63,001 nt of DNA from Marinobacter sp. (GTDB lineage Bacteria > Pseudomonadota > Gammaproteobacteria > Pseudomonadales > Oleiphilaceae). Location of the stretch: positions 1 through 63,001 of the forward strand of contig JACIZI010000023.1 in assembly GCA_014359475.1 (NCBI GenBank), given 5' to 3'. The position numbers and the translations under genes were made by a program. Numbering within the stretch: the stretch's first letter is position 1; each line of letters begins with the position of its first letter. A model generated the notes under the pieces. The model saw only the letters and a program-made list of their open reading frames with translations. It searched no databases and was not told the DNA's origin. Shown in pieces: positions 1,821-24,647 of this stretch.

Positions 1821-1860
1821 GAACGCCGGCGGGGTCTTACCCGCCGGCGTTCCGGTTTTG
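1821..1860. terminator. Rho-independent terminator between convergent genes
   Basis: GAACGCCGGCGGG (1821-1833) pairs perfectly with 1840-1852 around the loop GTCTTA, followed by CGGTTTTG. The 13-bp GC-rich stem and short T-run serve the plus-strand amidohydrolase. The symmetrical stem may also stop the minus-strand BMP gene, which ends at 1870. Confidence 0.85.
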
Positions 1861-1869
1861 CCTGTCGGT

Positions 1870-2937: not shown

Positions 2938-3042
2938 GAATACTTCTCCTGAACGGTTTGGTCGTTATGTTGTTTCCGTCATGACGGATCACCAATTAAC
3001 GGCAGCAAAAAGCTGGCCAAGTGTTCAGGAATTGTAATTCAC

Positions 3043-3054
3043 TGTTATATAACA
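3043..3054. promoter_or_regulatory. Perfect palindrome TGTTATATAACA in divergent promoter region
   Basis: A perfect 12-base AT-rich dyad, flanked by AATTGT (3030-3035) on one side and AACAATT (3051-3057) on the other. It lies about 105 bases upstream of the BMP gene and about 305 bases upstream of the importer ATPase. The remaining 2938-3359 intergenic DNA shows no gene. This may be an operator distinct from the ATTGCTAGCAAT family. Confidence 0.35.
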
Positions 3055-3335
3055 ATTTTGTTGATTGCCTGCTCCGGAGACAGGAAAAGCAATGCACCTA
3101 TGATGGCTTCGTGCCCGGTGATGGAGCAGCGGACATTGGGGAGTCACCCCGATTTTCCATGCTCAGAATTTGCGCACAGCGCCTTATTTTCAGGCACTGC
3201 CCCACCCGTGCCTCACTGAAACGACCCGTTTTACACCCTGCATGCCAAATCGTCCTTATAGTTTTCTTTCTATTTTTAAGCAGTTAGCGATATTTCCATC
3301 AGTCTGGCACAAGCTCTGCAGTCATCAACGAACGA

Positions 3336-3347
3336 ATTGTTAGCAAT
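3336..3347. promoter_or_regulatory. Island operator site 1 (ATTGTTAGCAAT)
   Basis: Near-perfect palindrome ending 12 bases before the ATG of the polyamine-type importer ATPase, so a bound repressor would sit on the leader close to the ribosome site. It is the exact reverse complement of the site at 8561. It belongs to the six-member set found upstream of the island operons. The likely reader is one of the two GntR/FCD regulators (inference). Confidence 0.6.
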
Positions 3348-3359
3348 TTTGGTGGTGGT

Positions 3360-4502
3360 ATGAGCAACGGATCGGTCGAGTTGGTGGGTGTGGTCAAACG
3401 TTATGGCGACTCCCCGGCGGTGAAAAACATCAATCTTTATATTGAGGGCAGTTCCTACTGCTGTCTGCTGGGCCCCAGCGGCTGCGGCAAATCCACCACC
3501 CTGCGAATGATTGCCGGACATGAATCGGTCACCGAGGGAGATATTCTGCTAAGCAATCGCAATGTGACCGACCTGCCACCCCGACGGCGGGGTACGGCAC
3601 TGATGTTCCAGAACTATGCCCTGTTCCCGCACCTGAACAGCCTGGACAACGTGGCTTTCAGCCTGCGGATTGCCGGCGTGGCCCCTGCGGAACGCCGGGC
3701 CAGGGCCCGGGAAATGCTGGCGCTGGTCAACATGGAGGATTACAGCGAGGCCCTGCCGGACCAGCTTTCCGGTGGCCAGCAGCAGCGAGTCGCGCTGGCC
3801 CGGGCACTGATCAACCAGCCGGAGGTCATCCTGTTGGATGAGCCCCTCTCGGCGCTGGATCCCTTCCTTCGCAACCGTATGCGAACCGAGCTCAAGCGGA
3901 TCCAGAAGCAATTGGGCATTACCTTTATCCACGTCACCCACTCCCAGGAAGAGGCCTTCGCCCTCGCCGATCAGGTGGTGGTAATGAACAATGGCAGCAT
4001 TGAACAGGTGGATACGCCGCCCGCTCTGTTCAGTGCCCCGCGAACGGCTTTCGTCGCCGGATTCATTGGCGGCCACAACATTATCGAGGGGACCGTCCAC
4101 AACCGGGAAATCCTGGTCAGTGATGGTATCCGTCTGCCACTGCCACCGGGCACAGAGGCGAGAGAACAGCCCGCCGGCGTGTCGCTGCGTTGCGATCACA
4201 TCTCGATCCACGCATCCCCCCCGACGAACACGACCAGCCTGCCCATGACCATCACTGCGGTGGAATACCAGGGACGCTATGTACAGCTGCAGGGTGACTG
4301 TGGCGACGGACTGTCGCTGGCAGTCTTCCAAAGCGATCAGGACTACCTTGCACACCCGTCCCGGGAAGGTGACACAGTACATGTGAGCTGGCACCCCCGG
4401 GATCTCAACATGCTTTATCGCACACCGGAACCGTCCGGCGTGTCCCCTTTCGTCAAACCCATAAACGAAAAACCCATCCCTCAAGGAGAGACCCATGCCT
4501 GA
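3360..4502 (+). CDS. ABC transporter ATP-binding protein, spermidine/putrescine (PotA) type
   Basis: Cytoplasmic ATPase subunit of a polyamine-type importer, 380 residues. Walker A GPSGCGKST is near residue 38, the signature LSGGQQQR near 136, and Walker B VILLDEP near 156 with the H-loop HVTHSQEEA after it. A C-terminal TOBE-type regulatory region follows from about 240. It is the first gene of a five-gene operon and overlaps the binding-protein gene by 8 bases. PotA-class importers move many small cationic or zwitterionic solutes, so the family alone does not give the substrate. The racemase at the operon end argues for a hydantoin or amino-acid-like solute (inference). The ribosome site upstream of the ATG is weak and overlaps the operator. 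Confidence 0.9.
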   Translation: MSNGSVELVGVVKRYGDSPAVKNINLYIEGSSYCCLLGPSGCGKSTTLRMIAGHESVTEGDILLSNRNVTDLPPRRRGTALMFQNYALFPHLNSLDNVAFSLRIAGVAPAERRARAREMLALVNMEDYSEALPDQLSGGQQQRVALARALINQPEVILLDEPLSALDPFLRNRMRTELKRIQKQLGITFIHVTHSQEEAFALADQVVVMNNGSIEQVDTPPALFSAPRTAFVAGFIGGHNIIEGTVHNREILVSDGIRLPLPPGTEAREQPAGVSLRCDHISIHASPPTNTTSLPMTITAVEYQGRYVQLQGDCGDGLSLAVFQSDQDYLAHPSREGDTVHVSWHPRDLNMLYRTPEPSGVSPFVKPINEKPIPQGETHA

Positions 4503-5844
4503 CGACAGCCATAACAACCCGATCCGCCGGCAAACCGAAGTCGACGACGCCACCGGTACAGGCAAGAAGGATGCAGGCCTGAGCCGACGCTCATTCCTCA
4601 AGGCCGCCAGCGCTCTTGGTGGCGCGGCTGTGGGTTCCGGGGCCATTACCGGCTTCCCGATGATCTGGGCCCAGAACATCAAGAATGTCACCCTGCGCCA
4701 GTTCGGCACCGGGGTATCCAACCTGAACGCTATCGCCGAAAAAGCCAGGCAGGACCTGGGCATCAACCTGCAACTCACCGCCCTGGATTCTGACGCAGTC
4801 ACCCAGCGGGCAATTACCCAGCCCAACTCCTATGACATTGCAGACATCGAATACTGGATTGCCAAGAAGGTCTTCCCGGCGGGAGTGATGCAGCCGATGG
4901 ATACACGCCGATTAAGCAATTTCGACAAGATCTCGAAACTGTTTATCACCGGTAAACTGACCGAGGATTCCGAGATTGCCCAAGGAACCGCCCCCCACAC
5001 CGTCGGCTTCGTCGAAAGCCAGAACTCCACCACTTTCGCCAGTGAGCCCACCCGCTGGATGACGCTGATCCCGACCATCTACAACGCGGACACCCTTGGC
5101 ATCCGCCCGGACCTGGTGGGCCGTCCCATCACCCGCTGGCGGGACATCATGGACCCGGCCTTCAAAGGCAGGACCTCAATCCTCAACATTCCCTCGATCG
5201 GCATCATGGATGCGGCAATGATCTGTGAGTCCATGGGCGAGATCCGGTATGGCAACAAGGGCAATATGACCCGCGACGAGATCGATGCCACCATCGACAT
5301 CCTGATGAAGGCCAAGTCCGATGGTCAGTTCCGGGCCTTCTGGAAGAGCTTCGACGAGTCGGTGAACCTGATGGCCTCCGGCGAAGTTGTTATACAATCC
5401 ATGTGGTCGCCCGCCGTCACTGCTGTCCGGTCCCGGGGCATTCCGTGCAAATACCAGCCACTGGAGGAAGGCTACCGGGCCTGGGGTGGCGGCATCGGTC
5501 TGGCAAAGCACCTGTCCGGCCTGGAACTGGATGCCGCCTATGAGTACATCGACTGGTATCTGTCAGGCTGGGTCGGCGCTTACCTGACCAAACAGGGCTA
5601 CTACAGTGCCGCACCAAAGACCTCCAAAGCCTACCTGACGGAGAATGAATGGGGTTACTGGATTGAAGGCAAGGAAGCCAAAGAAGATATCACCAACCCC
5701 GAGGGCAAAGTGATGGAAACCGCCGGTAGCGTCCGGGATGGCGGCTCCTACACCGAGCGGATGGGCAACGTGGCCTGCTGGAACTCCGTGATGGACGAAG
5801 ACCGCTACATGGTCCGCAAATGGAACGAGTTTATCGCATCCTGA
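4495..5844 (+). CDS. Extracellular solute-binding protein, PotD type, Tat signal
   Basis: Binding protein of the polyamine-type importer, 449 residues. The N-terminus carries a twin-arginine motif, SRRSFLKAA (about residues 29-37), followed by a hydrophobic stretch ending near WAQN. It should therefore be exported folded by the Tat system, unlike classical PotD, which uses Sec. The mature part has the type-II binding protein layout of PotD/PotF. The sequence does not identify the ligand. It begins inside the ATPase gene (8-base overlap) and is followed by a hairpin before the permeases. Confidence 0.85.
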   Translation: MPDDSHNNPIRRQTEVDDATGTGKKDAGLSRRSFLKAASALGGAAVGSGAITGFPMIWAQNIKNVTLRQFGTGVSNLNAIAEKARQDLGINLQLTALDSDAVTQRAITQPNSYDIADIEYWIAKKVFPAGVMQPMDTRRLSNFDKISKLFITGKLTEDSEIAQGTAPHTVGFVESQNSTTFASEPTRWMTLIPTIYNADTLGIRPDLVGRPITRWRDIMDPAFKGRTSILNIPSIGIMDAAMICESMGEIRYGNKGNMTRDEIDATIDILMKAKSDGQFRAFWKSFDESVNLMASGEVVIQSMWSPAVTAVRSRGIPCKYQPLEEGYRAWGGGIGLAKHLSGLELDAAYEYIDWYLSGWVGAYLTKQGYYSAAPKTSKAYLTENEWGYWIEGKEAKEDITNPEGKVMETAGSVRDGGSYTERMGNVACWNSVMDEDRYMVRKWNEFIAS

Positions 5845-5856
5845 TCTGAGCACCAG

Positions 5857-5885
5857 GACCGGCCCGGGCGTGGACCTGGCCGGTC
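5857..5885 (+). other. Intercistronic hairpin after binding-protein gene
   Basis: GACCGGCC (5857-5864) pairs with GGCCGGTC (5878-5885), just ahead of the permease ribosome site AGGAG. There is no T-run, so this is more likely an mRNA-stabilising or attenuating stem that raises binding-protein output over permeases than a full terminator. A matching arrangement follows the Liv-type binding protein at 9967. Confidence 0.55.
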
Positions 5886-5897
5886 AGGAGATACCCC

Positions 5898-6746
5898 ATG
5901 GCCTCTTCCCGAATGAGCTACCTGCAGGTCACGCCACTGGTAATGGTGATGCTGCTATTCCTTGTATTCCCGGTGCTGACCATCGTGGTGGTGAGTTTCT
6001 GGGACTTCAACGCCTACTCGCTGATCCCGGATCTGATCTGGGACAACTATGAATTCCTCCTCACCTCAAGCGTGACCCTGAAGGCCTACCTGACCACCTT
6101 GTTCTACGCGCTCACTACCTGGCTCATTACCTTCGTGCTGGGATTCACCGTTGCCTATTACCTGGCCTTTCATATCCGCAGCCCTGTCATTCAGGGCCTT
6201 ATGTTTGTGCTGTGCACCATTCCGTTCCTGACCTCCAACATCATCCGCATGATTTCCTGGATCCCCCTGCTGGGCCGCAACGGTCTGGTCAATTCCGGGC
6301 TGCAGGGTATGGGACTCACATCGGAACCGGTCGAATGGCTGCTCTACAGCGACTTTTCCGTCATCCTGGCGTTTGTGCACCTGTACACCCTGTTCATGGT
6401 GATTCCGGTCTTCAACTCGATGATGCGGATCGACCGGAATCTGGTGGAGGCCGCCATCGATGCCGGGGCCAGCACCTGGCAGACGATCGTGCGGATCATC
6501 CTGCCCCTGTGCAAATCCGGCATCGCCATCGGCTCGATTTTCGTCGTCACCCTGGTGATGGGTGATTTCATCACCGTGCGACTAATGAGTGGTGGCCTCA
6601 GCGCCTCCGTGGGGGTGCTGATCCACAACGAAATCTCCCTGTTACAGTACCCGGCCGCAGCCGCCGGGGCAGTGGTATTGTTGCTGACCGTGCTGCTGTT
6701 ACTGACCATCCTGTTCCGCTTCATCAACATACGCCAGGAGTTGTAA
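5898..6746 (+). CDS. ABC transporter permease, PotB type
   Basis: Inner-membrane permease of the polyamine-type importer, 282 residues with about six predicted membrane helices. The first spans residues 8-27 and the last runs to the C-terminus. The cytoplasmic loop that docks the ATPase is visible as EAAIDAGASTWQTIVRIILP (about residues 185-204). Start ATG 5898 follows AGGAG with 7-base spacing. The next gene starts 2 bases after its stop, so the two permeases are almost certainly co-translated. Confidence 0.88.
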   Translation: MASSRMSYLQVTPLVMVMLLFLVFPVLTIVVVSFWDFNAYSLIPDLIWDNYEFLLTSSVTLKAYLTTLFYALTTWLITFVLGFTVAYYLAFHIRSPVIQGLMFVLCTIPFLTSNIIRMISWIPLLGRNGLVNSGLQGMGLTSEPVEWLLYSDFSVILAFVHLYTLFMVIPVFNSMMRIDRNLVEAAIDAGASTWQTIVRIILPLCKSGIAIGSIFVVTLVMGDFITVRLMSGGLSASVGVLIHNEISLLQYPAAAAGAVVLLLTVLLLLTILFRFINIRQEL

Positions 6747-6748
6747 CC

Positions 6749-7603
6749 ATGGCCCATCATCGTGGACCACTGCATCTGCTGCTGACCCTGGTATTCATCC
6801 TGTTCCTGGCCTTCCTTTACGGCCCCACCCTGACCATCGGTATCCTGTCCTTTCAGGGCCCCGACGGGGGGCTTACTTTTCCCATGAACGGCCTGTCCCT
6901 GCACTGGTACGCTAATCTGTTCGAGAAACAGCAGGTCGGCGATTTTGGCGGCTCGCTGAGCCGCTCCCTGCTGCTGGGCCTGTCGGTGATGGTCTGCACC
7001 GTGGCATTCTCGCTGCTCGCCGGGCTGGCCTACCGGCGCCGGTTTCGGGGCGACTCGGCAATCTTTTACCTGACCCTGATCAGTCTGATCCTGCCGTCCA
7101 TACTGATCAGCCTCGGCATTGGCATCCTGTTCGATCAACTGGGCATCGCGCCCCACTGGTATGGTTCGGCCTTCGGTGCCCACCTGACCTGGACCCTGCC
7201 TTTCGGTTTGCTGATCATGTTTGCGGTGTTCAACCGTTTCAACAAGGTCTACGAAGCGGCCGCCACCGACATGGGTGCCAGTCGCTGGCAAACCTTCTGG
7301 CTGGTGGTGCTGCCACTGATACTGCCCAGCCTGATTGGAGTCGGGCTGTTGGGCTTCACCCTGTCCTACGACGAGTTCGCCCGTACGCTGATGACCTCGG
7401 GGAGCTTCAACACCCTGCCCCTGGAAATCTATGGCATGACTACCAACGTCACCACACCGGTACTCTATGCCCTGGGCACCTTCACCACCGCCGTTTCCTT
7501 TCTGCTGATCGGCCTGGCGCTGCTCAGCATGCGTTTGCTGACACGCCGCAAGCGCCGCCAGCCCCCCATTGAGGCCCCCGCCGATGAACCTGTTAATTAT
7601 TAA
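6749..7603 (+). CDS. ABC transporter permease, PotC type
   Basis: Second inner-membrane permease, 284 residues, about six helices. The docking motif EAAATDMGASRWQTFWLVVLP lies in the second half. Its ribosome site (CAGGAG) lies inside the end of the preceding permease gene. The last 20 bases overlap the racemase gene, showing tight coupling. With the three preceding genes it forms a complete importer: ATPase, binding protein and two permeases. Confidence 0.88.
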   Translation: MAHHRGPLHLLLTLVFILFLAFLYGPTLTIGILSFQGPDGGLTFPMNGLSLHWYANLFEKQQVGDFGGSLSRSLLLGLSVMVCTVAFSLLAGLAYRRRFRGDSAIFYLTLISLILPSILISLGIGILFDQLGIAPHWYGSAFGAHLTWTLPFGLLIMFAVFNRFNKVYEAAATDMGASRWQTFWLVVLPLILPSLIGVGLLGFTLSYDEFARTLMTSGSFNTLPLEIYGMTTNVTTPVLYALGTFTTAVSFLLIGLALLSMRLLTRRKRRQPPIEAPADEPVNY

Positions 7604-8312
7604 CCCTAATGACAGTGAGGCCATGCGCCAACAGATTGAAACCAGTTGCCGGGAGGTACAGGGCTGCCGCACCCTGCTGGATGTGGTCTGTGCGGGGGCT
7701 GGAGTACCCAGTGTGGAGGGCTTCGCCGATGGAGCCCTGGCACAGGTCGGAGTGCTCGAGCGCGTCCGAGAGGGTGAGGGCCGAGGTTACACCGGCTACC
7801 TGATCGCCTGCGCCGACGATACCGGAGTACACGCTGCCCGGGAACTTGCGCGGGGGCCCGTGGTGGGCATCGGCGAGGCCGCGTACCACACAGCAGCGCT
7901 GCTGGGGCATGGTTTTTCGGTGCTCACTGCCCAACGAAAATCCATTCCGGTCCTTGAGCAGAACCTGAGAGCCTATGGCCTTGAACACCTGACCCGCGGC
8001 ATCGAAGCAATGGAAATGCCGGTACTGTCACTGCCGGATGCATCCGAAACCGGCCTGACCAGCTCGCTGCTGGAGCGGGCCAGGCAGGTCACCCGGCGCC
8101 ACCGCAGCGAGGTATTGGTGCTCGGTTGCGCCGGACTCAGTCCCTACCAGCCCATGCTACAGGCGGAACTCGGCCTGCCTGTCGTGGATGGTGTGCGCAA
8201 CGGCCTGGTAATGCTGGAGGGCCTGCTGCGGGCAGGCCTGGCGACCAGCAAGGTCAACGGTTACCGGGCTGACGGACCGAACCGGGGAAGCAGATTTCCC
8301 ATGCCGTCATAG
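7584..8312 (+). CDS. Aspartate/glutamate/hydantoin racemase family protein
   Basis: Cofactor-independent racemase-fold enzyme, 242 residues from the chosen ATG. The family uses two cysteines as acid and base. These appear as IACADDTG in the first half and VLGCAGLSP in the second. Family members racemise hydantoins, allantoin, Asp or Glu. The start at 7584 (MNLLIINPN) matches the family N-terminus and overlaps the PotC gene by 20 bases. A further upstream in-frame start at 7569 looks less likely. As last gene of the importer operon, it suggests that the imported compound is a chiral hydantoin-like or amino-acid-like molecule (inference). Confidence 0.82.
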   Translation: MNLLIINPNDSEAMRQQIETSCREVQGCRTLLDVVCAGAGVPSVEGFADGALAQVGVLERVREGEGRGYTGYLIACADDTGVHAARELARGPVVGIGEAAYHTAALLGHGFSVLTAQRKSIPVLEQNLRAYGLEHLTRGIEAMEMPVLSLPDASETGLTSSLLERARQVTRRHRSEVLVLGCAGLSPYQPMLQAELGLPVVDGVRNGLVMLEGLLRAGLATSKVNGYRADGPNRGSRFPMPS

Positions 8313-8560
8313 CGGAAGGGGTAATCTTCTCCGGCGATTTATTTATTGCCTGCGAGTATATTGCATAAATTGCTGGTCTTTAAACATCTTTGGAGCCACC
8401 GCTCAAAGATTTGAATGGAGCAGCCTTCAATAAGAGCACGCTGGCAGCCCAGCAGCCCGCCGGCGGCGATCTTCATCGCACGGCCACCGGTAAAGTTAAT
8501 TTTCACATCAGGACTCATGAACCCTGCCGCCCGTTCCGGTGCCATGGAAGCCTCCGGAAA

Positions 8561-8572
8561 ATTGCTAACAAT
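8561..8572. promoter_or_regulatory. Island operator site 2 (ATTGCTAACAAT)
   Basis: Exact reverse complement of site 1 at 3336. It lies 204 bases upstream of the Liv-type binding-protein start and 161 bases from site 3, a spacing that could allow looping by a dimeric or tetrameric repressor (inference). Confidence 0.6.
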
Positions 8573-8732
8573 TTTTGAAACTTCATTTTCGACTGCCATC
8601 TTATCAACCTCACTTTTCCTGTTTCGTTCGCTTACTTCGCTCACGTATGGTGCAGAAAAACCTCCATGGCGACTCCCTGGTGCTGATTATGCCTCCTTTA
8701 CCTAAAACCCCGGCTATTTTAATGGCACCAAT

Positions 8733-8744
8733 TTTGCTAGCAAT
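8733..8744. promoter_or_regulatory. Island operator site 3 (TTTGCTAGCAAT)
   Basis: The core TTGCTAGCAA is a perfect 10-base palindrome. It ends 32 bases before the ATG of the Liv-type binding-protein gene, a typical repressor position. It is identical over 12 bases to the site at 23359 upstream of the last amidohydrolase. Confidence 0.65.
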
Positions 8745-8776
8745 CTTTCGAAAACACTTATACCCGGAGAAACAAA

Positions 8777-9955
8777 ATGTCTTTGAAACAAAAAATACGT
8801 CGGTGGTTGATTGCCTTGTGCGCGCCCTTAATGGTGTCGCTTGCCGCTAGCCCCCAGGCTGCGGAACCCTTGAAAGTGGGGCTGGTGGCCGCTCTGTCTG
8901 GCCAGTCGGCCAAGTCCGGTGAGGCCATCACCCGCGGGCTCACCATTGCCATTGATGAGATCAACGCCAGTGGTGGCATCCTGGGCCGGCAGGTGGAGCT
9001 ACTGCGCAGGGATGACGAAAGCAACCCCAACAAGGGGCTTCTTGCCGCCCGGGAACTGGTTCAGCAGGAAAAGGTTGCCGTGCTGTTCGGGGGGCTGGAT
9101 ACCCCCGTTTCCCTGGCTATTGTGCCGCTGGCCAACCGTATGAAGTTTCCGTTCATGGGCGTCTGGGCGGCGGGCACGCCCATCACTCGTAATGGCGCCG
9201 ATGAAAACTATGTGTTCCGGGTCTCTGCAGTGGACGAGCTGGTAGACGAAGCCCTGGTGCAATACGGCATCGATCGGTTCGACATGGAAAAGCCCGGCAT
9301 GATCCTGATCAACAACCCCTGGGGCGAGTCCAATGAACTTGGCTTTCGCAAGGCACTGGAGGCCCGCGATATGGAATGGGCAGGCATTGAGCGGTTTGAG
9401 AGTAACGATACCGATGTGGTGCCCCAGCTCAGCCGCCTGCGGGATCAGGGAGCCGATGCTTTGCTGATGGTGGCCAACGTATCGCCCTCGGCCCAGGTTG
9501 TGAAATCCCTGGACCGCATGGGCTGGGAGGTGCCGATCATCTCCCACTGGGGCCCGGCCGGTGGTCGTTTCAGTGAACTGGCCGGTAAAAACGCCGACAA
9601 AGTGCACTTTATCCAGACCTTTACTTTCTCTGAAGGCGGAACCGGCAAAGGTGCCGAGGTTCTGAAATCCCTCAAGGCGAAGTTTCCGGAAATCCAGACT
9701 CTGGCCGATGTGACACCCGCAGTGGGTATTGCCAATGCCTACGATGCCATGCACCTGACCGCACTGGCTATCGAGAACGCAGGCAACACCAACGGTGCGG
9801 CCATTCGCCAGGGCTACTATGACATCGACAGCTACAGCGGGTTGATCAAGGACTACTCATCACCCTTCTCGCCCCAGCAGCATGATGCCGTGGGGCCGGA
9901 AGACTATGTGTTCACACACTTCGTTGATGGCCGGATCGTACCTCTCGAGTTCTGA
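8777..9955 (+). CDS. Branched-chain amino acid-type ABC substrate-binding protein (LivJ/UrtA-like)
   Basis: Periplasmic type-I binding protein, 392 residues, with a signal peptide (KIRRWLIALC to about residue 29, cut near QAA-E). The family start LKVGLVAALSGQSAKSGEA and the two-lobe pattern with VLFGGLDTPVSLA are clear. Members bind branched amino acids, amides, urea or aromatic acids. The ligand is unknown here. Start ATG 8777 follows CGGAGA. It heads an operon of importer genes and a cytosine-deaminase-like hydrolase, so a heterocyclic or amide ligand is plausible (inference). Confidence 0.88.
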   Translation: MSLKQKIRRWLIALCAPLMVSLAASPQAAEPLKVGLVAALSGQSAKSGEAITRGLTIAIDEINASGGILGRQVELLRRDDESNPNKGLLAARELVQQEKVAVLFGGLDTPVSLAIVPLANRMKFPFMGVWAAGTPITRNGADENYVFRVSAVDELVDEALVQYGIDRFDMEKPGMILINNPWGESNELGFRKALEARDMEWAGIERFESNDTDVVPQLSRLRDQGADALLMVANVSPSAQVVKSLDRMGWEVPIISHWGPAGGRFSELAGKNADKVHFIQTFTFSEGGTGKGAEVLKSLKAKFPEIQTLADVTPAVGIANAYDAMHLTALAIENAGNTNGAAIRQGYYDIDSYSGLIKDYSSPFSPQQHDAVGPEDYVFTHFVDGRIVPLEF

Positions 9956-9966
9956 TCCTGACCGTA

Positions 9967-9993
9967 GCCGCCCGGGACCTGCTCCCGGGCGGC
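9967..9993 (+). other. Intercistronic hairpin after Liv-type binding-protein gene
   Basis: GCCGCCCGGGA (9967-9977) pairs perfectly with TCCCGGGCGGC (9983-9993) around CCTGC. The LivH ribosome site AGGAG follows directly. With no T-run, it probably stabilises the upstream message or limits read-through. Confidence 0.6.
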
Positions 9994-10009
9994 AGGAGAA
10001 CGTCACGCC

Positions 10010-10879
10010 ATGATTACCGCCAGCATTATCAGTGGCCTCAGCATGGGCAGCATGTATGCGCTGCTGGCCCTGGGGTTTCACATCACTTTCATTGTCTCCC
10101 GCACGGTCAACTTTGCCCAGGGCAGTGCGGTCATGGTGGGGGCCGTGCTTGGCTACACCTTCTGCATTACCTGGGGTTTGCCGTGGTTGCTGGCAGCAGT
10201 GCTAACGCTGACAATCTGCGCCCTGTACGGACTGGCCATAGAGCGCTTTCTGGTGCGCCCCTTCCATAGCCGGGGGTCCGAGGCCTGGCTGCTGGCCACC
10301 GTGGCCGGCGGTCTGTTTATCGACAACCTGGTCATGTTCACCTTCGGCAAGGAGCCCCGGCGGTTTACCCTTGAGGCCGTGAACCATCGCCTTGAACTGG
10401 CAGGCACCGGTGTGGACCTGATGCAACTGATTATTCCCGCCGTGGTCGCCATCATCGTGATTTCGCTGGTGCTGGTGCAGCGTTATACCCACTTGGGCAA
10501 GGTGCTGGCAGCCACTGTCCAGAATCCTTCTGCGGCACGCATGATGGGCGTTCATGTCAACCGGGTGGTTGCCGCATCGTTTGCGGTCTCGACGGTACTT
10601 GCTGGTATTGGCGGGTTACTGATCGCACCTCTGGTCAGTGTTCATTCCGATATGGGTACCCTGTTCGGCCTCAAGGCCTTTGCGGTTGCCATTCTTGGCG
10701 GCATTGCCAGCGCCAATGGCGTGGTCATGGCTGGCCTGCTGTTTGGCCTGGCGGAGGCCCTTATCATCGTTTACCTGGGTTCAACGATGGCCCAGATAGT
10801 GACCTTCAGCCTGGTGATCGTCATTCTGGCCATGCGCCCCAACGGCCTGTTCGGCTCAAAAACCCTGGTAAAAGTATGA
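10010..10879 (+). CDS. Branched-chain amino acid-type ABC permease, LivH family
   Basis: Inner-membrane permease, 289 residues, about eight hydrophobic helices. Family markers are GLSMGSMYALLALGF at the N-terminus and FGLKAFAVAILGGIASANG in the last third. Ribosome site AGGAG is upstream of ATG 10010. It overlaps the next gene by 4 bases (ATGA), so it is translationally coupled to the fused permease-ATPase protein. Confidence 0.9.
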   Translation: MITASIISGLSMGSMYALLALGFHITFIVSRTVNFAQGSAVMVGAVLGYTFCITWGLPWLLAAVLTLTICALYGLAIERFLVRPFHSRGSEAWLLATVAGGLFIDNLVMFTFGKEPRRFTLEAVNHRLELAGTGVDLMQLIIPAVVAIIVISLVLVQRYTHLGKVLAATVQNPSAARMMGVHVNRVVAASFAVSTVLAGIGGLLIAPLVSVHSDMGTLFGLKAFAVAILGGIASANGVVMAGLLFGLAEALIIVYLGSTMAQIVTFSLVIVILAMRPNGLFGSKTLVKV

Positions 10880-14603: not shown

Positions 14604-14623
14604 AACCAGTCTGCCCGGGCGGC

Positions 14624-15319: not shown

Positions 15320-15643
15320 GGAATGTGTTTCACTGATATTTTTGTGGTGCGTTGAATGTCTGGCGACACGGTAATCGCTAGCAATCAATTAGGAGGCCAT
15401 TATCCCTCTACGACACTATAGAAGTAAACCTTCTGCAACTGAGCGCACCTCCCCTGAGGCTCCCTCGCCCCGGGACGGTGCATACAAGTCCGGATATGTG
15501 CCTTAATCGGGCTCTGAAGCACTGCCAAGGACCCTGGCAACTCATCTTAGTTCGTTGTTTATCATTGTCTTTTTAGATGACGTCTTCTTTGGCTTATGGA
15601 TTGCATGCAGTCTGGTCATGATACCCCCACAGGAGCATGCACA
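15320..15643. promoter_or_regulatory. Divergent regulatory region, GntR gene / Dpp-type operon
   Basis: 324 bases with no convincing gene. It holds the operator at 15374-15385 close to the GntR side. A good ribosome site, ACAGGAG, lies at about 15629-15635 before the binding-protein ATG. I see no second operator copy near the Dpp-type start, so control there may be indirect or use the same site at a distance. Confidence 0.5.
15374..15385. promoter_or_regulatory. Island operator site 4 (ATCGCTAGCAAT)
   Basis: One mismatch from ATTGCTAGCAAT. It lies between the divergent GntR regulator and Dpp-type operon, 54 bases from the regulator ATG and about 258 bases from the binding-protein ATG. A copy in a regulator's own promoter is the classical sign of the cognate operator. 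Confidence 0.6.
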
Positions 15644-17260: not shown

Positions 17261-17272
17261 GGGGCAAGTCAG

Positions 17273-18304
17273 GTGCCCCCGATACTGGACAGACTGCGCA
17301 AGGTAGCTCTGCGCCTGCTTCAGGCGGTTCCGACTGTCTTCGGAATCCTGGTGGTGTGCTTCCTGCTGACCCGGGCCCTGCCCGGTGACCCTGCCGCCTA
17401 TTTTGCGGGCGACATGGCAGATGCAGAATCCATCGAGCAACTGCGACAGGAAATGGGGCTGGACCAGCCCCTGCCGGTTCAGTTCCTGAGCTACCTCAAG
17501 GACCTTGCCCAGGGTGACTTGGGCATGGCGGTGTCCACCGGGCAACCGGTGATGTCAGAACTGGCGAACCGGCTGCCAGCATCTCTGGAGCTGACCCTGG
17601 GTGCCCTGCTGCTGTCATTCCTGATTGCCGTGCCCCTGGGGGTGCTGGCCGCGACCCGGCCCAACACCTGGGTGGACCACCTGTGCCGGTTTCTGGTGAC
17701 TGCTGGCGTCTCCCTGCCCACCTTCTTTACCGGCCTGGCGCTGATGTATGTGTTCTATTACCTGCTGAGCTGGGCACCTGCGCCCATGGGCCGCCTGGAT
17801 TTCATGTATCTGCCGCCGGACCCGGTGACCGGCTTTCTGACCATCGACGCCATCATTGCCGGTGACTGGGAAGTACTCGGTGCTGCCCTGGCGCAACTGG
17901 CTTTGCCGTTGATCACCCTGGCCCTGTTCACCCTGGCGCCCATCGCCCGTATGACCCGGGCCGCCATGCTGCAGACCCTGAGCAGTGACTTTGTCCGCAC
18001 CGCCCGCGCTGCAGGGCTCAGCAACCGCAGGGTGCTGATTACCTATGCTTTCCGCAACGCCCTGCTGCCGGTGGTGACCACTCTGGGCATGGTGTTTTCC
18101 TTCGTGCTGGGTGCCAATGTGCTGGTGGAAAAAGTGTTCGCCTGGCCAGGCATCGGCTCCTTTGCCGTTGAGGCACTGGTGGTTTCCGACTATGCCGCGG
18201 TGCAGGGGTTCGTGCTGTCCATGGCGTTGCTGTTTGTCGCCCTGAACCTGCTGATTGATGTGATTTACACACTGATTGACCCCCGTGTAGGCGAGGAGGC
18301 CTGA
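17273..18304 (+). CDS. Dipeptide/oligopeptide-type ABC permease, DppB family
   Basis: Inner-membrane permease, 343 residues, about six helices. It has the N-terminal family stretch GILVVCFLLTRALPGDPA and, in the C-terminal half, the docking region FVRTARAAGLSNRRVLITYAFRNALLP split over the cytoplasmic loop. GTG start at 17273, 12 bases after the binding-protein stop; the ribosome site is modest. It forms the transmembrane pair with the next gene. Confidence 0.88.
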   Translation: MPPILDRLRKVALRLLQAVPTVFGILVVCFLLTRALPGDPAAYFAGDMADAESIEQLRQEMGLDQPLPVQFLSYLKDLAQGDLGMAVSTGQPVMSELANRLPASLELTLGALLLSFLIAVPLGVLAATRPNTWVDHLCRFLVTAGVSLPTFFTGLALMYVFYYLLSWAPAPMGRLDFMYLPPDPVTGFLTIDAIIAGDWEVLGAALAQLALPLITLALFTLAPIARMTRAAMLQTLSSDFVRTARAAGLSNRRVLITYAFRNALLPVVTTLGMVFSFVLGANVLVEKVFAWPGIGSFAVEALVVSDYAAVQGFVLSMALLFVALNLLIDVIYTLIDPRVGEEA

Positions 18305-18305
18305 C

Positions 18306-19193
18306 ATGACCAGCCCTGCCACCTCCGCCATGCCCGCAGGTCCTGCCCGCACCAGTTACTGGCAGCACCTGCGCCACGTGGCTTCGGAAAACCCGGTCAC
18401 CGGCCTGGCGTTCGCACTATTCGCCCTCTTCATAGGCATGGCCCTGTTCGGTCCTTACCTGGTACCTTTTGATCCTCTTGCGACGGATGTTGGTCCGGCG
18501 CTTCAGGCGCCCGGCGCTGCCCACTGGTTTGGCACCGACCAACTGGGGCGGGATGTGTTCTCCAGAGTTGTCGTGGCCACACGCCTGGACCTGCTGATTT
18601 CCGTGTCCGCCGTGGCCATTTCGTTTGTGCTGGGATCCGTTATGGGCTGCTTTGCCGGTTATTTCGGCGGCTGGACCGACCGTATTACCGGCCGCGTTGT
18701 CGACACCATCATGGCCTTCCCCCTGTTCGTACTGGCCATGGGTATCGTCGCCGCTGCCGGCAATACCGTGGAGAACATTGTCTACGCCACTGCCATCATC
18801 AACCTGCCCTTCTACGCCCGCATGGCCCGGGCAGAGGTCAGCATCCGCCGCAATGCCGGCTTTGTGCAGGCGGCCCGGCTGTCTGGCAATTCAGAGTTGC
18901 GGGTGCTGTTCGGCCATATTTTCCCCAACACCCTTCCGCCGATGATGGTGCAGATCTCGTTGAACATGGGCTGGGCCATTCTGAACGCCGCCGGGCTGTC
19001 GTTCATCGGCCTGGGCGTGCAACCTCCGGCCCCGGAGTGGGGCATCATGGTGGCCGAAGGCGCCAACTTCATTATTTCCGGCGAGTGGTGGCTGGTGATC
19101 TTTCCGGGGATGGCGCTGATGCTGGCGGTATTCACCTTCAACCTGATCGGCGATGGCCTGCGGGATCTGGTGGATCCCCAACGTCGCACCTGA
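18306..19193 (+). CDS. Dipeptide/oligopeptide-type ABC permease, DppC family
   Basis: Second inner-membrane permease, 295 residues. An N-terminal segment before the first helix (about residues 33-53) and FGTDQLGRDVFSRVV are typical of DppC. The C-terminal region PEWGIMVAEGANFI and VDPQR close the protein as in the family. It starts 1 base after the DppB stop. Its end is 10 bases before the start of the double ATPase gene. Confidence 0.9.
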   Translation: MTSPATSAMPAGPARTSYWQHLRHVASENPVTGLAFALFALFIGMALFGPYLVPFDPLATDVGPALQAPGAAHWFGTDQLGRDVFSRVVVATRLDLLISVSAVAISFVLGSVMGCFAGYFGGWTDRITGRVVDTIMAFPLFVLAMGIVAAAGNTVENIVYATAIINLPFYARMARAEVSIRRNAGFVQAARLSGNSELRVLFGHIFPNTLPPMMVQISLNMGWAILNAAGLSFIGLGVQPPAPEWGIMVAEGANFIISGEWWLVIFPGMALMLAVFTFNLIGDGLRDLVDPQRRT

Positions 19194-19203
19194 GGAAGGC
19201 AGA

Positions 19204-20898
19204 ATGAGTGAATCATCAGGTGTACCCCTGCTGGATATCAAGCGCCTGAGCGTGGACTTTGTCACCCGCAAGGGCACCGTCCGGGCCATCGACGATATTT
19301 CCCTGGCGGTAGGCAAGGGCGAGACCCTTGGCATTGTCGGTGAGTCCGGCTCCGGAAAATCGGTCACCTCCTACGCGGTCATGCGCATCCTGGACCGCGC
19401 GGGCCGCATTGCCGGTGGCAGTATTACCTATGGCGGCACACCCCTGCATAAGGCCCGCGAAAAGGACATGCGGGACATACGCGGTCGGGAGATTTCGATG
19501 ATCTTCCAGAATCCCCGGGCGGCGCTGAATCCGATCCGCCGAATAGGCCATCAGGTCGCCGACGTACTGATGCAGCACAGCCAGGCCACCCGCAGTAATG
19601 CCCGGGAAAAGGCAATCGCCATGCTCAGAGCGGTCAAGATCCGTGATCCGGAGCAGCGCTTCAACGCCTATCCCTTCGAGCTGTCCGGGGGCATGTGTCA
19701 ACGAGTGGTCATTGCCATCGCCCTGGCCTGCCGGCCCCGGTTGCTGATTGCCGACGAGCCCACCACCGGCCTGGACGTCACCACCCAGAAAGCGGTGATG
19801 GACCTGATTGTCGAGCTCACCCGGGAATACAGGATGTCCACCGTGCTCATCACCCACGACCTGGGGCTGGCGGCGGCTTACTGTGACCGGCTGGTGGTTA
19901 TGGAAAAAGGCCGGATTGTCGAAACCAACAGCTCCGCTGAAATGTTTCACCACCCCCGAGAGCAATACACCCGATTGTTACTGCAGGCCACGCCTCACCA
20001 TGACTCCCGGATCCGCGACCTGCTGACACCGGAAGCCAGGGCCCAGGCTATCAGGCTGCCGGAAACCCGAACCCTGGGGGAACCGATTCTTACCGTCAGC
20101 AACCTGCGCAAGCAGTTCGGCAAGCCCGGATCGGACGGCAGCCACCTGGCGGTGCAGGACCTGTCATTCCAGATCCGCGAAGGCGAGAGCCTGGGTCTGG
20201 TGGGTGAGAGTGGCTGCGGCAAATCCACGACCTCGTCCATGATCATGCGGTTACTGGACACCAGCAGCGGGCAGATCGACTTTCTGGGCCAGGACATTGC
20301 CCCGGTACCCGCCGCAAAATTCGCGTCCCACCCCTTACGGGGCAAACTGCAAATGGTCTTTCAGGACCCCACGGACAGCCTCAACCCCCGATGGAGCGCG
20401 GCCAAGTCTATTGGCGACCCGATTCAACGGCTGGAACCGGACATGGATCGCGCTGGCCGGGAGCAGAGGGTGATCGAGCTGGCAGGCCTGGTGGGGCTGC
20501 CGGTACATCTGCTGGACCGGTTCCCCCACCAACTGTCCGGAGGCCAGAAGGCCCGGGTTGGCATTGCCCGCGCCATCGCCCTGGAGCCCAGGCTGCTGAT
20601 TCTGGACGAGCCCACGGCCGCTCTGGATGTATCGGTGCAGGCGGTGGTGCTGAACCTGCTGGAGGACCTGAAGCATCGTCTGGGCATGAGCTACCTGTTC
20701 ATCAGCCATGACCTGAACGTGGTGCGGCTGTTATGTGATCGCATCATGGTGATGCAGAACGGTGCCGTGGTGGAGGAAGGCGATGCCCGCCAACTACTCG
20801 ATAACCCGCAAACCGACTACACCCGGACTTTGCTGGCAGCCATTCCCCACCCGCCGAAACCCGATGGCAATGAACAGACCACAGGAGCCGCACTTTGA
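19204..20898 (+). CDS. Fused dipeptide-type ABC ATPases (DppD-DppF in one chain)
   Basis: 564-residue protein with two ABC ATPase domains. Domain 1 has Walker A GESGSGKSVT, signature LSGGMCQRV and Walker B LLIADEPTTGLD. Domain 2 has Walker A GESGCGKSTT, signature LSGGQKARV and Walker B LLILDEPTAALD. DppD-DppF fusions are known (GsiA and YejF types), so this one is less unusual than the Liv triple fusion. The Cys in LSGGMCQRV, where Arg is usual, is a small oddity. I chose ATG 19204 (MSESSG); the upstream ATG at 19153 lies inside DppC. The stop overlaps the TTG start of the regulator gene. Confidence 0.9.
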   Translation: MSESSGVPLLDIKRLSVDFVTRKGTVRAIDDISLAVGKGETLGIVGESGSGKSVTSYAVMRILDRAGRIAGGSITYGGTPLHKAREKDMRDIRGREISMIFQNPRAALNPIRRIGHQVADVLMQHSQATRSNAREKAIAMLRAVKIRDPEQRFNAYPFELSGGMCQRVVIAIALACRPRLLIADEPTTGLDVTTQKAVMDLIVELTREYRMSTVLITHDLGLAAAYCDRLVVMEKGRIVETNSSAEMFHHPREQYTRLLLQATPHHDSRIRDLLTPEARAQAIRLPETRTLGEPILTVSNLRKQFGKPGSDGSHLAVQDLSFQIREGESLGLVGESGCGKSTTSSMIMRLLDTSSGQIDFLGQDIAPVPAAKFASHPLRGKLQMVFQDPTDSLNPRWSAAKSIGDPIQRLEPDMDRAGREQRVIELAGLVGLPVHLLDRFPHQLSGGQKARVGIARAIALEPRLLILDEPTAALDVSVQAVVLNLLEDLKHRLGMSYLFISHDLNVVRLLCDRIMVMQNGAVVEEGDARQLLDNPQTDYTRTLLAAIPHPPKPDGNEQTTGAAL

Positions 20899-21605
20899 CC
20901 GGCCCGACGACCTCTGCGGACCGCCGTGGCAAGGGCACGGTAGTGGACGCTATTGTCCAGGCCCTGGCCGATGACATTATCAGCGGCAACCTTACCCCGG
21001 GAACCAAGCTGGACGCCCAGACCATGGCGGAACGGTTTGGCGTTTCCCGTACGCCCATCCGGGAAACCTTCGGCCATCTTGCCGCCATGGGCCTGCTGAC
21101 CCACCGCCCCAACCGGGGCGTGATCGTTGCCACCGTGTCGTCGGATGACCTGAGTGATCTCTATGAAGCCATGGCAGAACTGGAAGCGGCCCTGGCAAGA
21201 CTGGCAGCCCTGCGCATGAACAGTGACCAGCGCCAGACGCTGCTGGAACTGCATCAGGACTCGGTACACCTGGTGCGGGATGGTACCGCCGATGAGTACG
21301 CTCGTTACAACCAGCGCTTCCATGCACTGATTTTCGAAGGTGCCCACAGCAGCCAGCTGCAACAACTGGCAGAAGCCACCCGCCACCGGCTGTCGCCCTT
21401 CCGGCGCGCCCAGTTCCGCCTGTCCAACCGGGTCAGTAAATCCTGGGAGGAACACGATGCCATTGTCCGCGCCATCCTGGCCGGCGATGCGGATGGCGTG
21501 GCCCGCCTGATGCGCCTGCACGTGCAGACGGTAAGCGCCATGTCGGCGGAATTTGTGGCTGAACATCAGCAGGCGACGGGTGCAAAGAGGAAAGCCAACA
21601 CATGA
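20895..21605 (+). CDS. GntR family transcriptional regulator, FCD type (operon-embedded)
   Basis: 236-residue regulator with an N-terminal winged helix (IISGNLTPGTKLDAQTMAE then GVSRTPIRETFGHLAAMG, a textbook GntR recognition region) and a C-terminal FCD helical domain. The start is TTG 20895, supported by AGGAG 8 bases upstream and overlap with the ATPase stop. It ends in an ATGA overlap with the gamma-glutamyltransferase-like gene. Being inside the operon, it may sense the imported ligand. It is the second candidate for binding the shared island operator. Compared with the 14.6 kb regulator, its HTH is closer to the family consensus. Confidence 0.85.
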   Translation: MTGPTTSADRRGKGTVVDAIVQALADDIISGNLTPGTKLDAQTMAERFGVSRTPIRETFGHLAAMGLLTHRPNRGVIVATVSSDDLSDLYEAMAELEAALARLAALRMNSDQRQTLLELHQDSVHLVRDGTADEYARYNQRFHALIFEGAHSSQLQQLAEATRHRLSPFRRAQFRLSNRVSKSWEEHDAIVRAILAGDADGVARLMRLHVQTVSAMSAEFVAEHQQATGAKRKANT

Positions 21606-23185
21606 AAGCGGAATCCACCGCTGGCGTGATCTGCACGCCGGACGCCCGCGCCACCGAAGCGGGCATGAACATTCTCCGGGCCGGTGGTACAGCCATCGAC
21701 GCGGCTATCGCAGCGGGCGCGGTTCTGTCGGTGGTCTACCCGCACATGACCGGTATTGGCGGCGATGCCCTGTGGCTGCTCAGCGATGGACGCCAAATAG
21801 ATACTCTGCTGGGTCTGGGTCAGGCCGGCTGGAATCTGCCGGAATGCGGAACCATTACCCTGCGGGGGCCCGCCTCGGCGGCAACCACCGCAGGAGCCCT
21901 GAGGGGCTGGTCCATGGCACATGACTGGGGTAGCAATCGCTGGGGTTCTGCCCTGGCCTGGCCGGAACTACTGGAGCAGGCCATCGCCTGCGCTCGGGAT
22001 GGCTATAGCCTATCCGCCAACCAGGCGTTCTGGCAGCAACAGCGACGGGGTCTGATCAGCAATCTGCCCGATCTCGCCAGCCTGTGCTGTGACGCGAACG
22101 GCACACTGCTCCCCGCTGGCACCAGGGTAATCCGTCCAGAACTGGCCAACACCCTGGAACATCTTGCCCGGGCGGGAATATCGGACTTCTACGAAGGCGA
22201 GCTGGCGACGGCCCTGGCAGAAGGGTTTGGCCGTCTCGGCAATGGCCTGACCCGGGAAGACCTGGCGAGAACAAAGGCCTGGCACAGCGAGCCCCTTAGT
22301 ATCCGTTACCGCAGCGGCCGCCTTTACAACTTCCCACCCCCCACCCAGGGCCTGTATACCCTCAGTGCGTTGAACGCCCTTAACTTTGTCGACCTGGGTG
22401 CTCTGGGAAATGGTAGTGCGGATTATTTCCACTATCTGGTGGAAGCCATCAAGGCCCAGTTAAGCCAGCGCAACCAAAAGTTGTGTGATCCGGCCGGTGG
22501 CACCCTGCACCCCCGCCGCCTGCTTGACTCTACCCGGGCGTCCGCCAGCTTTGCCGCCATCGACCCCGGGGTCGCCGTTCCCTGGCAGGAAGAAGGAAAA
22601 CCAGCCGATACGGTCTGGCTGGCAGCCAGCGATGCCAGCGGCCGGACCGCCTGCCTGATGCAGAGCCTGTTCCACGATTTCGGTTCCGGCTGCATGGTGG
22701 GAGACACCGGTATTCTGTGGCTGAACCGGGCTGCGGGCTTCAACCCCGACCCGGCCCATGCCAATGCCTGGGCCCCGGGCAAGCGCCCGGCCCATACCCT
22801 GAACCCATCGGCCTATCTGGCGGATGATGGCCGGCAGTTCTATTTCGGCACCCAGGGCGGCGACGGCCAGCCCCAGACCCAGATGGTGCTGGCGACCCAA
22901 CTGATCGACTTCCGGCAGCCTGTCGACCAGGCATTGCAGGCCCCGCGTTTCCTTCAGGGGCGCAGCTTTTTTGGCAGCAGCGAAAGCCTTAAGCTGGAAC
23001 ACAATATTGCACCGGCGGTGGGAGCAGACCTGGCCAGCCGGGGCCACGATATCGAATGGATTCCGGAACTCAGTCCCTTTACCGGACTGGCCGGGGCTGT
23101 GGCAATCCATCCGGATGGCCGCCGCGAGGCCATGCACGACCCACGGGGTGAAGGCACCGCCCTGGGCTACCGGCACTCGCTCTGA
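21602..23185 (+). CDS. Gamma-glutamyltransferase family protein, cytoplasmic (YwrD-like)
   Basis: Ntn-hydrolase fold protein of 527 residues. Family motifs include ATEAGMNILRAGGTAIDAAI near the N-terminus, MTGIGGDALWLL, and TLNPSAYL late. The autocatalytic nucleophile Thr is predicted at residue 337 in ADTVWLAASDA. Canonical enzymes have TTHLSVVD there, so the second Thr and the His are replaced. It has no signal peptide, so unlike classical periplasmic enzymes it should act in the cytoplasm. It is coupled (ATGA) to the regulator and transporter genes, suggesting hydrolysis of an imported gamma-glutamyl or cyclic imide-type compound. Substrate unknown. Confidence 0.82.
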   Translation: MKAESTAGVICTPDARATEAGMNILRAGGTAIDAAIAAGAVLSVVYPHMTGIGGDALWLLSDGRQIDTLLGLGQAGWNLPECGTITLRGPASAATTAGALRGWSMAHDWGSNRWGSALAWPELLEQAIACARDGYSLSANQAFWQQQRRGLISNLPDLASLCCDANGTLLPAGTRVIRPELANTLEHLARAGISDFYEGELATALAEGFGRLGNGLTREDLARTKAWHSEPLSIRYRSGRLYNFPPPTQGLYTLSALNALNFVDLGALGNGSADYFHYLVEAIKAQLSQRNQKLCDPAGGTLHPRRLLDSTRASASFAAIDPGVAVPWQEEGKPADTVWLAASDASGRTACLMQSLFHDFGSGCMVGDTGILWLNRAAGFNPDPAHANAWAPGKRPAHTLNPSAYLADDGRQFYFGTQGGDGQPQTQMVLATQLIDFRQPVDQALQAPRFLQGRSFFGSSESLKLEHNIAPAVGADLASRGHDIEWIPELSPFTGLAGAVAIHPDGRREAMHDPRGEGTALGYRHSL

Positions 23186-23358
23186 AGGGTTGCTTCGGCG
23201 CCCTGCTACTCCTGGTCGCTGGCCGGATGTTATTCAATGCTCTTTAAAGATGGATGATCTTTGGTGCGGTTTTGTTGCTCAGGCATCAATATGGCGCACC
23301 AGTAGCCATTCACCTCCTCCCAAAGCCAGATATTTCCGTGTCTGAGGATGGCATCAGG

Positions 23359-23391
23359 TTTGCTAGCAATCATGTATTTAGAGCTAGCAAT
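23359..23391. promoter_or_regulatory. Island operator sites 5 and 6 (tandem)
   Basis: TTTGCTAGCAAT at 23359-23370 and AGAGCTAGCAAT at 23380-23391 repeat with a 21-base centre spacing (two helical turns). They lie 38 bases before the ATG of the last amidohydrolase gene. Site 5 is identical to site 3 over 12 bases. Site 6 keeps only one good half. The rest of 23186-23429 shows no gene and no clear terminator. Confidence 0.65.
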
Positions 23392-23429
23392 GATGAGCCA
23401 GCCAGATAACCCTCAAAGGAAATAGCGAT

Positions 23430-24647
23430 ATGGCGGTCGTCGATTACCTGTTCACCAACGCACGTCTTCCCGATGGCAAAGTCGTCAGCCTGGCGGTAAG
23501 CGACGGTCGTTTCTCCAACCTGATTGAATCGGGGGGCGAGCTTCCTGGCGCCCTGCACAAGACAGACCTGGGTTGCCGGCTGGTGGTTCCGGGCTTTGTT
23601 GAGGGCCATATTCACCTGGACACCAGCTTCTACGGCGACACCTGGCGCCCCCATAAACCCTGCACCGGTGAATTCGACGTTCGCGAGCGTGCGGCTTTTC
23701 AGGCCGAAAACCTGGCACTGGCTGCGCCGGTCGAAGAACGGGCCCGCAGTCAGCTCGAGCTCTGCCTGGCCCGGGGCACAACCAGCATGCGCAGTCATGT
23801 CATGGTTGACGACAGCGTTGGCGTGGAGCATCTGGAAGCGGTTCTTGCAGTTCGGGAAAGCTACCGCAAACAGATTGACATTCAACTGGTGGCCTTTCCC
23901 CAGCACGGCATACTTCAGAGCCCCTGCACGGCAGATTATATGAATCAGGCCATGTCCATGGGCTGTGATGTGGTCGGCGGGCTCGACCCGGCCGGTTTCG
24001 ACGGCAACATCGCCGGGCACCTCAAGGTGGTTTTCGACATGGCGGAGCGACACGACGCCCGCATTGATATCCATCTGCACGACCCGGGGACCCTGGGCGT
24101 GTTCGAGATTAAATGCGTCGCCGACCACACCCGCGCCATGGGCATGGAAGGCCGTGTCACCATCAGTCACGCCTACTGCCTGGGTGACTTGCCCCTGGAC
24201 CAGGTTCGCCGGGTCGCAGATACACTGGCCCGTTCGGGCGTTGCTGTTGTCACCAATGCTCCCGGAGCAAGAGCCTTTCCACCGGTGCACGTGCTGCGGG
24301 ATGCCGGGGTAAATTATTTCGCTGGGAACGACAACATCCGGGATTCCTGGTGGCCCTGGGGAGATGGCGACCTGCTGCGCCGGGCCAATCTTATCGGTTA
24401 CTGCTCCGGGTTCAATGAGGACCGGGAGCTGGAAGTGGCATTTGACATGGTAACCCTGGCGGGTGCCAAAGCACTTGGCCTTGGCAATTACGGTCTTGCG
24501 GTCGGGGCCGTGGCGGATTTCGTGGTTCTGGATGCAGAGCATATCCCGGAAGCCGTGGTAGCCGTCCCCACAGCCCGGGATGTCTACAAGGGCGGACGCC
24601 TGGTGGCATCCGGGGGGAAGTGTTTTGCTTCCCAGGTCACGACCTGA
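23430..24647 (+). CDS. Cytosine deaminase-like amidohydrolase (second copy)
   Basis: 405-residue amidohydrolase of the cytosine deaminase/AtzC group. HxH at residues 60-62 (EGHIHLD), IDIHLHDPG and ISHAYCL supply the other histidines. The last Asp is kept in AGNDNIRDSWWPWGDGD, unlike the relative at 13380, so this one should be an active hydrolase or deaminase. Good ribosome site (AAAGGA) before ATG 23430. It is a single-gene unit with two operator copies upstream. Substrate unknown: cytosine-like, creatinine-like and s-triazine-like rings are all possible in this group. Its 3' end abuts a broken ATPase gene on the other strand. Confidence 0.84.
   Translation: MAVVDYLFTNARLPDGKVVSLAVSDGRFSNLIESGGELPGALHKTDLGCRLVVPGFVEGHIHLDTSFYGDTWRPHKPCTGEFDVRERAAFQAENLALAAPVEERARSQLELCLARGTTSMRSHVMVDDSVGVEHLEAVLAVRESYRKQIDIQLVAFPQHGILQSPCTADYMNQAMSMGCDVVGGLDPAGFDGNIAGHLKVVFDMAERHDARIDIHLHDPGTLGVFEIKCVADHTRAMGMEGRVTISHAYCLGDLPLDQVRRVADTLARSGVAVVTNAPGARAFPPVHVLRDAGVNYFAGNDNIRDSWWPWGDGDLLRRANLIGYCSGFNEDRELEVAFDMVTLAGAKALGLGNYGLAVGAVADFVVLDAEHIPEAVVAVPTARDVYKGGRLVASGGKCFASQVTT

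Follow-up and report, generated by a model that had tools for sequence, protein, structure and literature searches.

A conserved palindromic operator and its predicted GntR-type regulator in a catabolic gene cluster of Marinobacter sp.

We analyzed 63,001 nucleotides of DNA from Marinobacter sp. (contig JACIZI010000023.1, positions 1 to 63,001; hereafter, the window), in which the following genes lie close together:

3360-4502, 4495-5844, 5898-6746 and 6749-7603, forward strand: PotABCD-type importer
7569-8312, forward strand: Asp/Glu/hydantoin-type racemase
8471-8596, reverse strand: remnant of an NTF2/SnoaL-like gene (residues 2-45 of 136 left), divergent from livJ
8777-9955, 10010-10879 and 10876-13383, forward strand: Liv-type importer (SBP, permease and fused permease-ATPase-ATPase)
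13380-14603, forward strand: deam1, a cytosine-deaminase-like amidohydrolase
14624-15319, reverse strand: GntR1, an FCD-type GntR protein and the predicted regulator of the operator
15596-17260, 17273-18304, 18306-19193 and 19153-20898 (fused ATPases), forward strand: Dpp-type importer
20895-21605, forward strand: GntR2, an FCD-type GntR protein with a canonical helix, not the predicted regulator of the operator
21602-23185, forward strand: GGT-like Ntn hydrolase, best solved-structure match 5hft
23430-24647, forward strand: deam2, an AtzC-like amidohydrolase of PRK05985 (above cut-off) with canonical metal-site residues

Two of the importer subunits are fusions, one combining a permease with two ATPases (10876-13383, 835 aa) and the other combining two Dpp ATPases (19153-20898, 581 aa). 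The cluster abuts a housekeeping block (26005-37324; rnhB, lpxD, bamA, rseP, dxr and uppS), which suggests an inserted island.

Six copies of a short palindromic operator, ATTGCTAGCAAT and its variants, accompany these genes, and all were found where a previous sequence-only reading of this DNA had placed them:

3336-3347, no strand: operator ATTGTTAGCAAT, 12 bp 5' of the potA start (3360)
8561-8572, no strand: operator ATTGCTAACAAT, within the NTF2 remnant and 204 bp from livJ
8733-8744, no strand: operator TTTGCTAGCAAT, 32 bp 5' of the livJ start (8777)
15374-15385, no strand: operator ATCGCTAGCAAT, 54 bp before the GntR1 ATG (15319) and 210 bp before dppA
23359-23370, no strand: operator TTTGCTAGCAAT, first of a 21-bp pair, 59 bp before 23430
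23380-23391, no strand: operator AGAGCTAGCAAT, second of the pair, with two mismatches, 38 bp before 23430

The operator is real. Five matches to ATTGCTAGCAAT at ≤1 mismatch occur in the window against 0.05 expected, a count reached by none of 100 dinucleotide shuffles; all five have exactly one mismatch, and the perfect 12-mer is absent from the whole window. The inner 10-mer at ≤1 mismatch was also found five times, against 1.25 expected and no more than 4 in any shuffle. With the threshold loosened to ≤3 mismatches, the 12-mer showed no excess in the window (22 versus 17.5 expected). Across the 3.69 Mb of the organism's own genome (85 contigs), matches at ≤1 mismatch fall at six places, five inside the window and the sixth at C78:100063 with the core TGG; this whole-genome scan revealed no spread of many sites through unrelated genes at that threshold. 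Matches at ≤2 mismatches are common there (75 places versus 51 for the reversed control), so site 23380 is weak alone, its support being the 21-bp spacing from 23359. A sigma-70 scan of positions 1-20000 gave 8 hits where 6.5 were expected by chance, so the placement of sites at promoters is presumed.

The distances of 12-54 bases from gene starts given in the sequence-only reading hold for 3336, 8733, 15374 and 23380, but not for 23359 (59 bp) or 8561 (204 bp). The gap at 15374, where the operator variant is identical in the relative G110, rests on the chosen ATG at 15319, and a TTG at 15388 would place the site inside the GntR1 frame. For the Dpp and GGT unit this is also the nearest operator, 210 bp away on the GntR1 side of the divergent region; within the window the unit lacks one of its own, and its proposed membership in the regulon would there depend on the divergent GntR1 promoter alone. 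In the Pseudomonas loci described below, many sites have GGT as their closest gene. Near the contig end, 322-1815 encodes an 8-oxoguanine-deaminase-like amidohydrolase (PRK12393 above cut-off; best solved-structure matches, 2paj and 3hpa); the 321 bases that precede its start contain no operator at ≤1 mismatch. Positions 1870-2937 encode a lone BMP-type binding protein without an adjoining importer. A relative of this protein in G110 belongs to the deam2 operon behind an operator, and permease relatives are found on other contigs of the window's genome (best, 51% on C31).

By sequence comparison, dozens of Pseudomonas, Klebsiella-type and related bacteria have the same predicted operator and regulator. 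Scanning genome contigs with GntR1 yielded 59 loci, from Pseudomonas, Stutzerimonas, Halotalea, Winslowiella, Klebsiella, Raoultella, Cedecea, Pantoea and others, 50 of which contain a match at ≤1 mismatch (117 matches altogether). The best of 119 control palindromes, all permutations of the half-site (120 in all with the real one included), reached 4 of the 59 loci, with a mean of 1.1. Core-type sites, that is, those with GCTAGC, GTTAGC or GCTAAC in the middle, were present at ≤2 mismatches in 53 of the 59, counts that are not independent events because the loci share ancestry. Six loci have the GntR1 recognition helix and no core-type site at ≤2 mismatches (L082, L083, L084, L091, L085 and L092), and because L085 and L092 are cut off by the contig on one side, the number without a site is 4-6.

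Invariance of the helix among the 59 loci is partly built in, since one of the peptide patterns used to find them was QANRNHVQ. A whole-protein search with GntR1 of 163 family genomes, 23 of which gave matches, is free of this bias. Seven orthologs (61-77% identity) and a 49% identical paralog (L028) all carry the helix ANRNHV, and all eight have a core-type site within 1.5 kb, six of them at ≤1 mismatch. The other 20 loci from this search all have an SR-type helix, as read on both strands, and 19 are without a core-type site at ≤2 mismatches; the single exception, L030, adjoins GntR1 in the same genome. At the level of the class the system is patchy: 14 of 369 sampled genomes had a match at E 1e-30 (at most seven candidates scored in each, the window's own excepted), and the window alone exceeded 43% identity to GntR1. 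At L152 (43% identical, helix ANRNHVR), no site was found within 1.5 kb.

Neighboring sites less than 60 bp apart show two spacings and no others, 21 bp in 40 cases and 22 bp in 14, which corresponds to two helical turns. The site profile was built from 209 sites in 69 stretches, filtered for the three cores and with near-copies and two overlapping stretch pairs included. Nearest genes were counted for 215 sites and were livJ for 82, GGT for 50, NTF2 for 43, GntR1 for 11, dppA for 6, SDR for 5, deam2 for 3 and others for a few, with none for 4; 41 sites were internal to a called gene by over 60 bp, for the most part the NTF2 gene or a gene whose call took the longest frame. This count uses longest-frame starts, includes both members of the overlapping pairs L071/L126 and L086/L125, and leaves out L120-L124 and L127.

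The regulon looks local. In five Pseudomonas-type genomes, 16 of 17 core-type sites at ≤1 mismatch lie within GntR1-type loci, as do 14 of 20 in six relatives. A regulon spread over the genome was rejected for the relatives: none of 16 outside stretches examined, a part of all such stretches, holds a homolog of the named cluster genes (E 1e-15), and several of their sites fall inside long frames. One outside site, G163 C2:15506, failed on examination as the mark of a relocated GGT gene. Perfect 12-mers at L121 6548 and L124 6206 occupy a homologous place in two enterobacterial genomes, before genes of 386 and 1074 codons that are not homologs of cluster genes. Taken across loci, the comparison strongly supports the earlier proposal that a shared operator joins several transport and hydrolase units.

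The further claim that the sites occur only in promoter regions did not survive, as 8561 sits in the 5' coding remnant of the divergent NTF2-like gene, for which the window's genome yielded no further match. On the minus strand, the site reads ATT GTT AGC AAT, the codons I-V-S-N of this gene. Many related loci have a full-length NTF2 gene, and its coding part often contains an operator-like sequence; G110 has an intact copy plus a similar remnant, identified by eye, before livJ. With 8561 in frame, it and its counterparts could be no operator and merely a conserved stretch of protein, a reading that codon choice makes unlikely. IVS[NDS] is found at the place of the operator in 37 of 52 NTF2-cluster members, the other 15 being left out of the codon count for having no IVS[NDS] or no anchor. 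Among these 37 genes, which come from related and thus not independent species, GTT is the Val codon in 35 (background 10.5%) and ATT the Ile codon in 35 (background 25%), while none of eight NTF2 genes with IVR, IIR or IVK instead uses ATT. This bias suggests conservation at the DNA level and argues for an operator within the NTF2 coding sequence, with shared ancestry as a caveat.

Gene content around the operator differs between lineages. Loci of the Pseudomonas type are arranged as site(s)-GGT-GntR1 facing deam1-livMGF-livH-livJ-site(s), with the NTF2-like gene divergent from livJ. One Stutzerimonas locus (L034) and three same-genus relatives (L112, L113 and L115) have an extra 2OG-Fe(II) oxygenase gene, and L034, L112 and L115 an extra SDR gene; in G073 (L115 7968-8225, 14838-15931), only a fragment of GGT seems to be left and the 2OG oxygenase occupies two separate frames. 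Raoultella and a Pantoea plasmid have the order site-PuuE-like-NTF2-site-Dpp importer-amidohydrolases-GntR1, with perfect 12-mers. The nearest relative found, G110 (77%), has site-deam2-BMP-type importer-cytidine-deaminase-like gene, followed by NTF2, DUF1989 and an NMT1-type SBP, then site-liv-deam1-GntR1-site and lastly Dpp-GntR2-GGT. In G152 (L119), PotABCD and racemase genes are divergent from a GntR1 paralog, and the site precedes potA by 13 bp, compared with 12 bp in the window. The Pot-racemase-GntR order is repeated on an Azospirillum plasmid, where the helix is SR-type and there is no site. On two alphaproteobacterial plasmids with deam1 (L131 and L132), genes for NTF2, an ABC importer and GGT are close by, but the GntR is another one and the site is absent, so enzymes and regulator are partly separable; a third (L130) has deam1 without NTF2, ABC importer or GGT. 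Because gene content under the operator varies in this way, one common substrate is not certain.

GntR1 matches Pfam PF00392 and PF07729 above cut-off (in 14624-15388), giving a GntR wHTH plus FCD architecture that places it in the FadR subfamily. Its recognition helix, ANRNHVQ (ANRNHVQVAL), is unusual, those of its paralogs and of HpxS being SR-type. Aligned by hand to what we take to be the FadR sequence, GntR1 keeps the equivalent of Arg45 but loses that of Arg35; Thr-Arg-Thr-Thr is replaced by Asn-Arg-Asn-His, and Arg49 by Gln. These helix residues would fit an altered DNA specificity, the specific base contacts of FadR being Arg35, Thr44, Arg45, Thr46 and His65 (Table 1 of PMC4494728). 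The regulator tree has long branches, with misread frames in some paralog rows, and we draw no claim of branching from it.

Both GntR proteins had been named as candidates; GntR1 is the likely regulator because its unusual helix goes with the site. It is improbable that the sites bind an unrelated factor, of MarR, LacI or similar type, with GntR1 as a bystander of the same cluster. The TTGC half-site does differ from the GT of the GntR consensus published in PMC4494728, and at least four GntR1 loci are without a site, but helix and site occur together across loci, and the site surrounds GntR1 in clusters of differing content, with GntR1 or its ANRNHVR paralog the part common to the liv/GGT, dpp/PuuE and pot clusters that have the site. 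That the operator belongs to GntR2, or to both proteins, is very improbable even though GntR2 is an FCD-type GntR of the same cluster: its protein cluster has two members (window and G110) versus 70 for GntR1 among 83 sequences, the 53 loci with a core-type site have no member of the GntR2 cluster, and its helix, SRTPIRE, is of the kind whose loci are without the site in 19 of 20 cases.

Of the two genes previously called deaminase-like, deam2 has canonical metal-site residues (best solved-structure matches, 6nbo and 2qt3), but deam1 is without the acid residues of its own best match, CodA (1k6w). In CodA, we take Asp313 to be the metal-site Asp on strand 8 and Glu217 the catalytic Glu. By alignment, deam1 keeps H56, H58, H206 and H238 and has Asn305 and Phe209 at the places of Asp313 and Glu217, both invariant in 26 of 26 sequences. 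Across a wider set of relatives, including alphaproteobacterial ones, Phe is found in 53 of 53 and Asn in 50 of 53 by pattern and in the other three by eye. Loss of the Glu217 equivalent depends on the alignment, because an invariant Asp210 adjoins Phe209. By this alignment, the residue pair expected of a cytosine deaminase is not found in deam1, and the name deaminase is unsafe for it.

Putting these lines together, we consider it probable that GntR1 acts on ATTGCTAGCAAT to repress the cluster until a ligand binds, and that the cluster imports and opens an N-rich heterocycle or ureide-like compound. GntR1, an FCD-type GntR related to HpxS with an altered recognition helix, would have ATTGCTAGCAAT as its operator, and its dimers would occupy sites at the cluster promoters, either single ones or tandem pairs spaced 21-22 bp. 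It would most likely repress the cluster units and its own gene, a role that we infer from site position and the habit of the family, and a substrate or intermediate of the pathway would bind the FCD domain and end repression. Uptake and hydrolysis of an N-rich heterocycle is the best guess for the function, because ureide- and nucleobase-type parts recur: the structure matches 5hft for GGT and 3qvj for the racemase, and PuuE-like, DUF1989 and BMP-importer genes in the clusters of relatives, so that the parts would be relatives of purine and ureide catabolic ones. We put the chance that the substrate is an N-rich heterocycle or ureide at about even. The likeness to the hpx parts makes a pathway for a cyclic amide, ureide or N-heterocycle, as first suggested, plausible.

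A longer evolutionary account is possible but doubtful. An HpxS-related clade may have changed its helix from SR-type to ANRNHVQ and hence its operator from GT/AC to GC/GC. It would now run a mobile, undescribed pathway with a shared NTF2-like protein that carries the operator in its own coding sequence and, in liv-type clusters, an amidohydrolase without the catalytic Asp in every member seen, and so with other chemistry.

The predicted regulator-operator pair departs from the GntR consensus, and its natural variants across several genera could map the change in specificity. The analysis also marks out a catabolic gene set common to several gammaproteobacterial families and a hydrolase family, that of deam1, in which the metal-site histidines are kept and the acid residues of cytosine deaminase are gone.

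Among part of the literature matches for the motif and cluster, no title concerned such a regulator or cluster. The closest likeness is to HpxS and hpxSAB of Klebsiella and Raoultella ureide catabolism, where a GntR regulator also adjoins a racemase. In Raoultella locus L133, which we take from gene order to be HpxS/HpxAB, the regulator is 34% identical to GntR1, with the helix VSRTGIRKVL versus ANRNHVQVAL, and the racemase is 41% identical to that of the window. Identity of GntR1 with HpxS was rejected, given the 34% identity and the other helix; the two are separate genes, because L133 and the GntR1 cluster L086 are found together in one Raoultella genome (G171). The hpx ureide parts in the window are an HpxA-like racemase, whose best solved-structure match is 3qvj (presumably HpxA), and an HpxW-like GGT. 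A PuuE-like protein is found in two enterobacterial clusters alone, at 91 bits versus a cut-off of 425. The GGT-like protein is closest to 5hft (E 5e-52 for the small chain and 2e-42 for the large chain), which we take to be HpxW, a GGT-like oxamate amidohydrolase, and the Thr that opens the small chain of 5hft is kept in 21602-23185; it also matches 2nlz (labelled cephalosporin acylase, 5e-50) and the GGT 2e0w (8e-43). CodA and AtzC-type amidohydrolases are by sequence the family of both other hydrolases, with deam1 differing from CodA at the Asp313 and Glu217 places in 53 of 53 relatives and deam2 canonical.

Operators of the FadR subfamily are likewise short palindromes with a 2-nt center, double sites and a site at the regulator's own gene, and in PMC4494728 HpxS is among the GntR groups with 2-nt spaced sites. 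The half-sites differ, being TTGC-TA-GCAA here and GT/AC there, and the site that GntR1 would bind lies outside the TKGT/ACMA consensus given for the subfamily in that source. Overall, the comparisons point to an operator and regulator that form a real, conserved system, apparently a local one, and a variant of the FadR/HpxS kind over a catabolic cluster.
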